This document shows positions 21,638-62,869 of a stretch of 64,000 bases of DNA, one piece after another. This stretch comes from Hephaestia caeni. GTDB lineage: Bacteria; Pseudomonadota; Alphaproteobacteria; Sphingomonadales; Sphingomonadaceae. The stretch spans positions 682,001-746,000 of the forward strand of contig NZ_QXDC01000004.1 of assembly GCF_003550065.1 (NCBI RefSeq), written 5' to 3'. The translations under genes and the position numbers were made by a program. Positions within the stretch are counted from its first letter, which is position 1, and the number at the start of each line of letters is the position of its first letter. The notes below the pieces were generated by a model that had not been told where the DNA came from, ran no database searches, and saw only the letters and a program-made list of their open reading frames with translations.

Positions 21638-21715
21638 GTGCTCCCGCGAAAGCAGGAGCCCAGAGCCATTGGGCACCGCGCTTGTAACCCTGGGCTCCTG
21701 CTTTCGCAGGAGCAC
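21638..21715. repeat. GCGAAAGC-loop hairpin pair (GTGCTCC type), copy 1
   Basis: The left hairpin has CTCCCGCGAAAGCAGGAG (21641-21658, one central mismatch). The right is the inverted unit CTCCTGCTTTCGCAGGAG (21695-21712), and both are followed inward by CCCAG or CTGGG. It sits between uvrC and sugE. A near-identical pair lies at 58018-58095. Confidence 0.8.
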
Positions 21716-24783: not shown

Positions 24784-24846
24784 GTCACTCCAGCGAAAGC
24801 TGGAGTCGCCCTTGCGGATAAAGATGCCAGCCTTCGCTGGCATGAC
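24784..24846. repeat. GCGAAAGC-loop hairpin pair (CCAG stem)
   Basis: The left hairpin is CTCCAGCGAAAGCTGGAG preceded by GTCA. The right, inverted, is TGCCAGCCTTCGCTGGCA followed by TGAC. The stems differ between the two hairpins (CTCCA/TGGAG and TGCCA/TGGCA), yet both remain fully paired. It lies between the F0 operon leader and ydbL. Confidence 0.8.
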
Positions 24847-32638: not shown

Positions 32639-32734
32639 CGTCACCCCCGCGGAGGAAGCGGGGGTCCATCTCCCCACTGTCCCACATAGCGGCAACGGCA
32701 AGAGATGGGTTCCCGCCTACGCGGGAATGACGTG
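32639..32734. repeat. GCG-loop hairpin pair (GTCACCCCCGC type) between dnaK and dnaJ
   Basis: The left unit is GTCACCCCCGCGGAGGAAGC, then GGGGGTCCATCTCC. The right, inverted, is AGATGGGTTCCCGCCTACGC, then GGGAATGACG. It is of the same general design as the repeats flanking the GIY-YIG gene at 61389-61853, including the GTCA head and the CCATCTCC tail. A read-through transcript from dnaK to dnaJ would carry this structure. Confidence 0.8.
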
Positions 32735-35983: not shown

Positions 35984-36077
35984 GTCATGCCAGCGAAGGC
36001 TGGCATCCATGACTCGATCCGCAAACGAACGGGCTGCCTTACTGGAGAGATAGACCCCAGCCTTCGCTGGGGTGACG
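35984..36077. repeat. GCGAAGGC-loop hairpin pair (GTCATGCCAGC type)
   Basis: The left hairpin TGCCAGCGAAGGCTGGCA follows GTCA and is followed by TCCATGAC. The right, inverted, is CCCCAGCCTTCGCTGGGG followed by TGAC. Stem bases differ between the two hairpins but pairing is kept. It lies between the broken VOC gene and the LD-carboxypeptidase gene. Confidence 0.8.
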
Positions 36078-58017: not shown

Positions 58018-58095
58018 GTGCTCCTGCGAAAGCAGGAGCCCAGTGTCACGAGCGACACGTTCCATACCCTGGGCTCCTGCTTTCGCAGGAGCACG
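58018..58095. repeat. GCGAAAGC-loop hairpin pair (GTGCTCC type), copy 2
   Basis: The left hairpin is CTCCTGCGAAAGCAGGAG (58021-58038), preceded by GTG. The right is the inverse, CTCCTGCTTTCGCAGGAG (58075-58092), with CCCAG/CTGGG inside each. It is the same family as 21638-21715, with all stem pairs complete here. Confidence 0.85.
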
Positions 58096-60765: not shown

Positions 60766-61383
60766 TCAATCCCGCATCGGCACGAATTTGGGGAGCGCCC
60801 GCACCCGCGCGATCCAGGCGCCGACATGCGGATAGAGCCCGAGATCGAACCCGCCTTCGCCCGCGACATGGGTATAGGCGAACAGCGCGATATCGGCGAG
60901 GCTGGCCGCATCCCCGACGAACCAGTCGTGGAGCGAAAGGTGGTCCTCCATCTGCTGGAGCGCCGCTTCGCCTGCCAGCCTTTTGCCGGGGATCATGCTG
61001 CGCTGAAGCTCGCTCAACGCGTCGGTGCCCACCATCGTCAGCCAATAGCGCACGGTCGCGACATTGGGTTCGTGATGATATTGCTCGAAGAACATCCAGC
61101 GCAGCATATCGGCGCGCCCAAACCGGTCGCCCGGCACCAGCGCCGACCCCTCGCCCAGATAGCAGCACGCCGCGTTGCTTTCAGGCAGGAAGCGCTGCCC
61201 GACCTGAAGCACCGGAATCCGCCCGACGGGATTGATGTGTGCCAGAAACTCGGGCGTGCGCGTTTCGCCCTTCATGATATCGTATTCGACGCGCTCCATG
61301 CGAATGCCGAGCAGCGCCGCGGTGAGGCGGATCTTGTAGCAATTGCCCGAAACGGGGTCTTCGTGAAGGATCAGCTTGTCCAT
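60766..61383 (-). CDS. Glutathione S-transferase family protein, second
   Basis: The 205-residue protein has DPVSGNCYKIRLTAALLGIR at the N-terminus (the CxxxR-like active site NCYKIR) and the HINPVGRIPVLQVGQRFLPE substrate strand with Glu and Ser following. The C-domain has HDWFVGDAASLADIALFAYT. It differs clearly from the transferase at 58121. The gene's start is 5 bp from the left inverted repeat of the GIY-YIG cassette. Confidence 0.92.
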   Translation of the reverse strand: MDKLILHEDPVSGNCYKIRLTAALLGIRMERVEYDIMKGETRTPEFLAHINPVGRIPVLQVGQRFLPESNAACCYLGEGSALVPGDRFGRADMLRWMFFEQYHHEPNVATVRYWLTMVGTDALSELQRSMIPGKRLAGEAALQQMEDHLSLHDWFVGDAASLADIALFAYTHVAGEGGFDLGLYPHVGAWIARVRALPKFVPMRD

Positions 61384-61388
61384 CGTCG

Positions 61389-61419
61389 GTCATCCCCGCG
61401 AAAGCGGGGACCCATCTCC
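61389..61419. repeat. Left 31-bp inverted repeat flanking the GIY-YIG gene
   Basis: The repeat reads GTCATCCCCGCGAAAGCGGG, then GACCCATCTCC. It contains the CCCC-GCGAAAGC-GGGG hairpin and is the exact inverse of 61823-61853. It lies 5 bp from the second transferase start. Confidence 0.9.
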
Positions 61420-61459
61420 GACGAGTGCCCGCAGGTCAACGGTTGAGATCGAAGAGTGT

Positions 61460-61515
61460 GTTTGAGAAATCGCGAAAGAGCGATTTTCGAAGCGCCGAAA
61501 GGCGCACTCTCAAAC
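61460..61515. repeat. Solo GTTTGAGA element, 56 bp
   Basis: It begins GTTTGAGAAATCGC and ends GCGCACTCTCAAAC, so the 8-bp ends are inverted. Inside are two hairpins, ATCGC-GAAAGA-GCGAT and GCGCC-GAAA-GGCGC. The element overlaps the last codons of the GIY-YIG gene (stop at 61510). Confidence 0.8.
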
Positions 61516-61797
61516 GAGATCGAAGAACAAGTCGCGCCAGTCGGGATTGGCTTTCTCGATCAGGTCGATCTTCCAGGCGCGACGCCACTTCTTGATCGCC
61601 TTTTCGCGGGCAATGGCATCCTCGATATGCTCGGCCGGCTCGACATAGACGAGCGTATCGATCCCGTACTCGCGGCAGAATTTGCTGCCCTTGCCGGCTT
61701 TGTGCTGCATCATGCGTGCGGCGATGTCGGCCGTCACGCCCGTGTAGAGCGCGCCGTTCTTGCGGTTGGCGAGGATATAGAGGTAGCCGCCGCTCAT
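61510..61797 (-). CDS. GIY-YIG nuclease family protein (UPF0213-like) in an inverted-repeat cassette
   Basis: The 95-residue protein consists of a single GIY-YIG domain: YLYILANRKNGALYTGVTAD for the GIY...YIG strands, the Arg in IAARMMQHK, a central KGSKFCREYG, and the Glu in AIAREKAIKKWRRAWK. It has no added DNA-binding domain. The gene is enclosed by 31-bp perfect inverted repeats of the GCGAAAGC family. The 3' end overlaps a GTTTGAGA element, from which the stop codon derives. Members are known as predicted endonucleases; here it may act on or move the repeats, by analogy to RAYT enzymes. Confidence 0.92.
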   Translation of the reverse strand: MSGGYLYILANRKNGALYTGVTADIAARMMQHKAGKGSKFCREYGIDTLVYVEPAEHIEDAIAREKAIKKWRRAWKIDLIEKANPDWRDLFFDLV

Positions 61798-61822
61798 GTC
61801 CGTTCCCTCTCGTGCCAGAGTA

Positions 61823-61853
61823 GGAGATGGGTCCCCGCTTTCGCGGGGATGAC
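61823..61853. repeat. Right 31-bp inverted repeat flanking the GIY-YIG gene
   Basis: It is the perfect inverse of 61389-61419 and lies 14 bp from the quinone oxidoreductase stop (61868). The segment bounded by the two repeats is 465 bp. No target duplication is visible directly outside. Confidence 0.9.
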
Positions 61854-61867
61854 GCAGGCGGCGCGCG

Positions 61868-62869
61868 TCATTCCATCGTCAGCACGATCTTGCCGACATG
61901 GTCGCCCGATTCGAGCCGGCGGTGCGCGTCGGCGGCCTGGGCGAGCGGGAAGGTGGTGTCGATCTCGGGCTTCAGGCGCCCCGCCTCGACGAACGGCCAG
62001 ACGGTGCGCGCGAGTTCGTCGGTGACCAGCGCCTTGAACACGGCGTCGCGCGGACGCAGCGTCGAGCCGGTGAGCGTCAGCCGGCGGCGCATCACCTCGA
62101 ACACCGGGATCGTCGCCACAGCACCGCCCTGCACCGCGATCGAGACGTGGCGGCCGTCGTCGGCGAGGCATTGCAGGTTGCGCGGCACGTAATCGCCGCC
62201 GACCATGTCGAGCACCGCCGTCACCCCCGCGCCGCCGGTGATCGCCTTCACCTCGGCGACGAAATCCTGCGTCTTGTAGTTGATCGCGTGATCGGCGCCG
62301 AGCGCGCGCGCGGCGGCGCATTTCGCGTCCGAACCCGCCGTCACGATGATCGTCAGCCCGAACAGCGCCGCGAGCTTGATCGCCATCGTGCCGATCCCGC
62401 TGGTGCCGCCGTGGACGAGGACGGTGTCGCCCTCGGCGACATAGGCGCGCTCGAACAGGTTGGTCCACACGGTGTAGAGCGTCTCGGGGATCGCCGCCGC
62501 CTCGACCATCGACAGCGCTTGTGGCACCGGCAGGCATTGCCCCGCGGGCGCGACCGCATATTGCGCATAGCCGCCACCGGCGACGAGCGCGCAGACCCGT
62601 TGGCCGAGCAGTGCCCCGTCGACGCCGGCGCCGAGCGCGACGACCTCGCCCGCGATTTCGAGCCCGAGGATCGACGGCGCACCGGGCGGCGGCGGATAGG
62701 CGCCCTTGCGCTGGAGCACGTCGGGGCGATTGACCCCGGCGGCGGCGACGCGAATCAGCACGTCGGCCGGGCCGGGGCGCGGCGTGGGGCGCCGGGCGGG
62801 CACCAGCACTTCCGGGCCGCCCCCATTCTCAGGGTCGATCGCGATCATCGTTTCGGGCAGCACGGTCAT
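61868..62869 (-). CDS. NAD(P)H quinone oxidoreductase, zeta-crystallin type
   Basis: This MDR-superfamily enzyme reduces quinones or enones using NADPH. The 333-residue protein has LIRVAAAGVNRPDVLQRKG near the start and the nucleotide motif VHGGTSGIGTMAIKLA, followed by ALGADHAINYKTQDFV. No zinc-ligand set is seen, consistent with the QOR group. I start at the ATG at 62869 (MTVLPETMIAIDPENGGG). The TfdA-like PIG3 name is also applied to relatives. Confidence 0.92.
   Translation of the reverse strand: MTVLPETMIAIDPENGGGPEVLVPARRPTPRPGPADVLIRVAAAGVNRPDVLQRKGAYPPPPGAPSILGLEIAGEVVALGAGVDGALLGQRVCALVAGGGYAQYAVAPAGQCLPVPQALSMVEAAAIPETLYTVWTNLFERAYVAEGDTVLVHGGTSGIGTMAIKLAALFGLTIIVTAGSDAKCAAARALGADHAINYKTQDFVAEVKAITGGAGVTAVLDMVGGDYVPRNLQCLADDGRHVSIAVQGGAVATIPVFEVMRRRLTLTGSTLRPRDAVFKALVTDELARTVWPFVEAGRLKPEIDTTFPLAQAADAHRRLESGDHVGKIVLTME

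Follow-up and report, generated by a model that had tools for sequence, protein, structure and literature searches.

Single-domain GIY-YIG enzymes with one active site normally nick or cut branched or single-stranded structures (Slx1, UvrC), and roles in GIY-YIG catalysis are assigned to conserved Tyr, Arg and Glu residues. One GIY-YIG family, Ssn, reportedly consists of site-specific single-strand nucleases and is said to have been described by Chenal et al. in Nat Commun in 2025; its Neisseria member is said to have a repeated cognate sequence, NTS, and many homologues to have targets of their own. The hairpin repeats called CGTC-REPs are defined, in a 2013 survey, by a CGTC (or TGTC/CCTC) tag, a stem of 8–9 bp, a loop of 4–5 nt and a CCA tail, and occur mostly in inverted (HH) dimers; the same survey places them in 5 phyla and states that they 'apparently lack a dedicated transposase' (PMC3733652; Di Nocera et al. 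2013). GIY-YIG has no occurrence in that paper. For RAYT (TnpA-REP) systems, or REPtrons, PMC6006769 describes a small enzyme gene between REPs with many gene-free REP pairs, the gene being largely stable and the REPs class-specific.

The window analysed here, a stretch of 64,000 nucleotides of Hephaestia caeni DNA, contains a cassette in which a GIY-YIG nuclease gene lies between two CGTC-REPs. Its hairpins share tag, stem, 4–5 nt loop, CCA tail and inverted dimers with those of the 2013 survey, and differ in having a nuclease partner where that survey gives no transposase (PMC3733652). The cassette shows the four REPtron features named above, and its enzyme is flanked by its own REPs; unlike RAYTs (PMC6006769), it lacks a Y1/HUH transposase domain, its tag is CGTC and not GTAG, and its nuclease has another fold. 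GIY-YIG proteins of UPF0213/YhbQ type have the same fold and size as the window protein. As reportedly described, Ssn resembles the window cassette in combining a GIY-YIG enzyme with a repeated cognate sequence. A Neisseria gonorrhoeae frame (start codon not identified), which may be the published Ssn, is 47% identical over 90 aa to the window protein and lies among CGTCATTCCCGC repeats, with 11 CGTC-REPs in 2,270 bp. We do not claim a new kind of system, because Ssn has reportedly been described and the setting of the gonococcal frame fits it. In the literature searched, which did not include the Ssn paper, we found no paper tying GIY-YIG to REPs or CGTC-REPs, to the cassette unit or to paralogous pairs.

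A nuclease gene between inverted hairpins in Hephaestia caeni

The cassette spans 465 bp (61389–61853). Its outer 31 nt are identical at both ends in inverted orientation (61389–61419 and 61823–61853), as the first-pass annotation had reported when it described perfect 31-bp inverted repeats around a GIY-YIG gene, and the full inverted arms (61389–61422 and 61820–61853) are 34 nt each and 97% complementary. The sole ORF between the ends encodes the 95-aa nuclease on the minus strand (61510–61797). Its assignment to GIY-YIG held: the protein matches PF01541 (E 1.4e-14; 54.6 bits against a cut-off of 22.6), has no other domain match, and carries the family-invariant residues Y7, Y18, G20, R28, H32, E65 and N84 of an alignment of 23 sequences (A1). 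AlphaFold2 models it as a confident single domain (pLDDT 94.5), for which the closest solved structures are the UPF0213 protein BH0048 (1zg2, E 2.8e-4) and then, weakly, Slx1. The fit between the neighbours is as tight as first described, with 5 bp to a glutathione S-transferase (GST) gene starting at 61383 and 14 bp to a quinone oxidoreductase gene ending at 61868. The window protein had no match in PADLOC, by which we rule out a known defence family; in NCBIfam none of 6 proteins matched above the cut-off, and a search of phage records with the L048 protein (E 1e-8) found nothing.

The two hairpins are 26 nt each and belong to the CGTC-REP superfamily. The left, gene-downstream copy (61389–61414, plus strand) has the tag GGTC and the tail CCA; the right, gene-upstream copy (61828–61853, minus strand) runs from CGTC to CCA, with its tag facing outward and its inner end 30 nt from the nuclease start codon. 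The stem has 7 pairs and one A.C mismatch, the loop is GAAA, and the DNA fold of this hairpin class (class A), typed with the CGTC tag, has −9.3 kcal/mol (z −3.6). A nested mini-element of ~60 bp (61456–61515), overlooked in the first-pass annotation, is inserted where the nuclease gene ends, within its final codons, between two copies of the 11-bp direct repeat GAGATCGAAGA (61445–61455 and, within the nuclease ORF, 61516–61526), likely its target duplication. It has 31 further matches in this genome, mostly partial, and is a second insertion, unrelated to the cassette; because of it the 3' spacer of the window cassette, 95 nt, is longer than in most relatives.

We counted hairpin sites in the genome with two CGTC-REP patterns. 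Pattern GTCATNCCNGCGNNNGCNGG has 72 sites, comprising 43 of class A, 23 of class B and others; pattern GTCANNCCGGNCTTGNNCCGG has 95, of which 73 are class C (GGACTTGTTCC). Together they mark 167 sites, and reversed control patterns have zero in the same genome. The exact class A 16-mer occurs at 18 sites. The cassette hairpins had been called the commonest hairpin family of the genome, and this did not stand: class A, with 43 sites, is outnumbered by the 73 of class C, in a count that covers some classes only. Nor is GCGAAAGC by itself clearly enriched in the window (12 occurrences where 6.6 would be expected, a count attained in 4 of 100 shuffles).

Gene-free inverted pairs accompany the cassette. 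Nine class A pairs that we examined (87–104 bp) contain most or all of its terminal 31 bp around differing middles, and many further plus/minus neighbours occur in the genome, in keeping with the inverted dimers of CGTC-REPs. All five head-to-head pairs that had been proposed as empty versions of the cassette exist as inverted pairs, but they are not one family. The pair at 32639–32731 is of the cassette's own class, with an inner CCATCTC motif and an imperfect left hairpin. Those at 35984–36076 and 24784–24846 are class B (GTCATGCCAGC / GTCACCCCAGC), as found around the paralogue L020, and those at 21638–21715 and 58018–58094 have a GTGCTCC tag in place of CGTC. The idea of empty cassettes thus holds for same-class pairs and fails for pairs of other classes. 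Hairpins of the GTGCTCC type flank GIY-YIG genes of relatives (L149, L152, L158); further tag types therefore exist.

This genome has six paralogues of the subfamily (L020, L022, L023, L024, L026 and L027), all with CGTC-REPs on both sides and with about five hairpin types among them; class A flanks L027 and class B L020. The left and right REPs of L023 are unlike (similarity 0.43). Elsewhere in the genome (L301; contig C5, about 101,900) we observed a GIY-YIG remnant whose N- and C-terminal parts lie in different frames. It adjoins, upstream, a gene with the same start as the neighbour of L192, presumably succinyl-CoA synthetase alpha, and L068, L086, L103, L133 and L192 are syntenic there, which points to vertical inheritance and decay.

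Flanking REPs across a GIY-YIG subfamily

We examined the association in two sets of homologues. The order-level set comprises every match that reaches about E 1e-17, 92 in total from 41 of 99 genomes, and was picked by protein similarity alone; weaker matches are left out of it. Outward CGTC-REPs within 150 nt of the gene were present on both sides of 46 of the 92 homologues and of 0 of 169 other ORFs from the same stretches, and on at least one side of 60 of 92 homologues against 17 of 169 control ORFs. The RAYT-like layout with a GIY-YIG enzyme in place of the tyrosine enzyme, suggested earlier from one locus, is thereby strongly supported as an association. A motif-free test, scored on the strongest inverted repeat that one flank forms with the other, gave at least 14 for 73 of the 92 homologues and 1 of 161 controls, the single positive control being the second GIY-YIG gene of locus L144; at this score 19 of the 92 have no inverted repeat. 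The first-pass annotation had named homologues that usually lack the repeats as an outcome that would count against it, and the opposite was found.

The wide set consists of the best 80 of 562 loci from named genomes of many phyla, found with an alignment of six sequences (A2) picked after the first REP flanks were known. REPs lie on both sides of four of these six (L037, L040, L047 and L048), on one side of L053 and on neither side of L055; given this choice and the selection of the best 80 of 562, the wide set may lean towards flanked genes. Three of the 80 loci (REP count) or four (inverted-repeat score) were dropped as lying near contig ends. Among these best 80 of 562 loci, both-side REPs, again within 150 nt, were found for 40 of 77 homologues and 5 of 874 control ORFs (Fisher p 2e-43, a value that overstates the independent cases because the rows are related to each other), and an inverted-repeat score of at least 20 for 37 of 76 and 11 of 842, respectively. 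CGTC-REPs occur here around nuclease genes of further phyla, beyond the 5 of the 2013 survey.

Other GIY-YIG genes differ. We compared 20 from the same order, a selection from the weaker order-level matches, many of them on the UPF0213/YhbQ side and one (L250) a broken frame. A CGTC-REP stands beside none of the 20, and three have inverted repeats of another family. We conclude that packaging by REPs is a property of this GIY-YIG subfamily, beyond the window locus. Many of these genomes are rich in REPs, and small genes might fall by chance into REP-rich intergenic DNA; we regard this as having next to no probability, since both-side flanking is seen in none of the 169 order-level control ORFs, in 5 of the 874 of the wide set, in 3 of 208 wide-set control ORFs of up to 450 nt and in 0 of 20 other GIY-YIG genes, and these controls already refute it.

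At the genome level, the number of REPs of the two patterns correlates with nuclease copy number (Spearman 0.60, 99 genomes), a value inflated by shared ancestry. Of the 41 genomes with the gene, 39 have at least one such REP; of the 58 that lack it, 25 do. The earlier alternative of repeats equally common without the nuclease thus fails as a rule; 8 of the 58 genomes without a strong match nonetheless have at least 10 REPs, and 11 nuclease-bearing genomes have at most 2.

The REP-rich genomes without a strong nuclease match would fit a different mover, a RAYT or another transposase, with the nuclease gene as its passenger or repeated target. RAYTs do act on REPs, namely on GTAG REPs (PMC6006769). 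But the window's genome has 0 Y1_Tnp matches, in a search of the Y1 family, despite its 167 CGTC-REP sites, and the REP-rich genomes G035, G065 and G074 are likewise without a Y1_Tnp match; RAYT is therefore not the current mover in these four genomes, and for the window's genome we discard it. The 2013 survey reports no transposase gene regularly flanked by CGTC-REPs (PMC3733652), and if the gene were a passenger, its repeated occurrence across many phyla together with REP classes that match it would not be expected. We consider a different mover improbable.

Several loci have settings of their own. A longer imperfect CGTC-tagged repeat of the CGTCATTGCGAGCGAAGCGAAGCAATCCAG type lies near L173, L178, L179, L181 and L189. 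In genome G026 a GIY-YIG gene is tandemly duplicated together with its surroundings, about 580 bp apart (L036/L138). On a Planktothrix plasmid, a GIY-YIG homologue (L239) surrounded by TGTCATTCTGAG repeats has an MmeI-type restriction gene on one side and drmA of DISARM on the other.

Hairpin types and their enzymes

We compared REPs within and between cassettes in 81 cassettes with both REPs within 120 nt of the gene. The two REPs of one cassette are 0.91 similar, compared with 0.60 for REPs of other cassettes in the same genome. Among 31 cassettes from 11 multi-cassette genomes, the partner REP is the best match in 23, and in the other 8 a REP from another cassette is as close or closer. Protein similarity is correlated with REP similarity (Mantel r 0.364, p 0.0005), and for 67 of 81 cassettes the closest protein from a different genome goes with the same loop class (shuffles: mean 37, maximum 55). 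On a tree that is weakly resolved, loop class changes 12 times, against about 27 times after shuffling. These tests are not fully independent, because REP class and protein phylogeny each follow clades in part. The hairpin classes match the enzymes, and REP type follows enzyme phylogeny.

A second GIY-YIG subfamily may be paired with other repeat families. Among UPF0213-like genes of the same genomes (L262–L276), 8 of 15 loci have an inverted repeat with a score of at least 20; the hairpins come from families other than CGTC-REP, five of the eight loci being of the TGAGCTTGTCGAAGG type. None of 14 YhbQ-like genes (L277–L289 and L291) reaches that score; L290, from the same comparison, belongs to the CGTC-linked subfamily. 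The window's genome has a UPF0213-like copy of its own (L019/L271). We treat the pairing of the UPF0213-like subfamily as a lead.

Cassette boundaries and possible routes of spread

We consider it probable that, taken as a whole, the observations are best explained by a nuclease–REP cassette whose enzyme cuts its cognate hairpin, with repair spreading REP pairs or the cassette. In this view, two outward-tagged CGTC-REPs enclose the gene of a small GIY-YIG endonuclease with a single domain and would serve as its cognate target. The enzyme would recognise the hairpin with its unpaired CGTC tag in single-stranded DNA (lagging strand, repair or incoming DNA) and cut at or near the tag. Repair of the cuts would give rise to REP pairs (REPINs) at new sites, and now and then to a complete cassette with its gene, and the target would not be duplicated. 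Several paralogous enzyme–hairpin pairs could coexist in one genome, each with its own hairpin type. Cutting of the hairpin by the enzyme is likely. Specificity for single strands is what we infer, partly from the Ssn family, and the chances of REP and cassette movement by the nuclease seem about even, judging from unit boundaries, dispersed copies and presence/absence. The enzyme has a single domain and is not known to transfer strands, which weighs against this reading. Three traits resemble those of the RAYT/IS200 systems, which process single-stranded DNA: the putative hairpin targets have an unpaired tag, duplication of the target is slight or absent, and twins without a gene exist.

That relatives from many bacterial groups share this packaging suggests that enzymes of the CGTC-linked subfamily recognise their hairpins, which belong to one of the most abundant repeat families of bacteria, and perhaps spread them. 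The origin of CGTC-REPs was left open in 2013, and their tight pairing with a 95-residue nuclease makes the question open to direct testing with oligonucleotides. Several paralogous pairs per genome would supply sequence-specific single-strand nucleases as a set ready for use and, if movement is shown, the cassette would be a minimal REP-spreading system that uses neither a tyrosine nor a DDE transposase.

Cassette ends are sharp. We compared 286 unlinked homologous cassette pairs, in which 271 edges of homology could be placed against a REP (L057 and L066, from the same genomes as L048 and L055, were dropped from the boundary, matching and duplication tests). Homology stops inside the cassette before the REP at 175 edges, at the tag (−3 to +10 nt) at 87, further out at 9 and within the REP at 0, so that 87 of the 96 edges that reach a REP end within −3 to +10 nt of the tag. 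Just outside the tags G is depleted (5–15% at −9 to −2, compared with 20–22% at −14 to −12). Two copies in one genome, L052 and L141, are about 90% identical over 420 bp in unrelated surroundings, and their shared part extends 13–23 nt past the tags. Inheritance in place is seen for some cassettes, 29 of 315 homologous cassette pairs being syntenic, and movement is therefore rare.

These boundaries also bear on a reading in which the hairpins serve the gene: acting as terminators in both directions or as hairpins of the mRNA, they would insulate or autoregulate a nuclease that has another job, such as repair or control of DNA uptake, and does not mobilise them. It is true that little separates the upstream REP from the start codon and that several cassettes have a stop codon overlapped by the downstream REP; the Neisseria family, moreover, reportedly acts in the control of transformation. 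Nevertheless, pairs that have these ends and no gene abound, unlinked cassettes are homologous up to the tag only, REP class tracks the protein across genomes, and control ORFs of similar size are rarely flanked (the 3 of 208 above). Hairpins that merely serve the gene are unlikely, if less so than a different mover.

Most cassettes have no target duplication beyond chance. Among 79 cassettes with both REPs within 120 nt and 40 nt of flank, duplications of at least 3 nt were found in 2 (permuted mean 0.38, p 0.055), which is not above chance, and a flank repeat of at least 6 nt in 1 (p 0.009; about 1% of permutation draws). Most of the 79 cassettes lack the end target-site duplication of classical insertion sequences and DDE MITEs, and target-duplicating transposition of the cassette is ruled out by the low count of 2 in 79.

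At the GST–oxidoreductase junction we compared 15 congeners selected out of 121 genomes. Eight (L223–L230) have just 17–106 bp between the two genes and no REP, and four (L234–L237) have other DNA at the junction and no REP. L233 has a cassette at the same place, with 69% identity over 257 bp and an open GIY-YIG frame, which rules out a degraded cassette. L232 has a cassette beside the GST gene and L231 a gene-free REP with a weaker partner. The congeners diverge too far for a base-exact empty site of the window cassette, and none was obtained among them. Shinella and Rhizobium plasmid sites likewise gave no clean empty site.

Sphingobium plasmids provide presence and absence at one site. Seven records contain a full cassette between fnrL and a response-regulator gene, and five more have both flanks and no cassette. 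We aligned three records with the cassette and four without it. Two of the latter, TomTYG64 and TomTYG74 (L293 and L296), have at the place of the cassette a single hairpin with an outward tag on both sides, which looks like two REPs joined across their stems and has two base differences in TomTYG74; the other two have no CGTC-REP at the site. Excision would leave such a double-tag hybrid, and slippage between short repeats would too. The hybrid enters a broader proposal, to which we give somewhat less than an even chance: GIY-YIG single-strand nucleases would be the missing movers of CGTC-REPs, the cassette a minimal autonomous element that spreads REPINs by cutting in or next to hairpins, the Sphingobium double-tag palindrome a footprint of it, and at least two GIY-YIG subfamilies would be separately paired with different repeat families. 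Double-tagged palindromes are rare elsewhere, with 4 in 1.5 Mb of other loci and 2 after shuffling.
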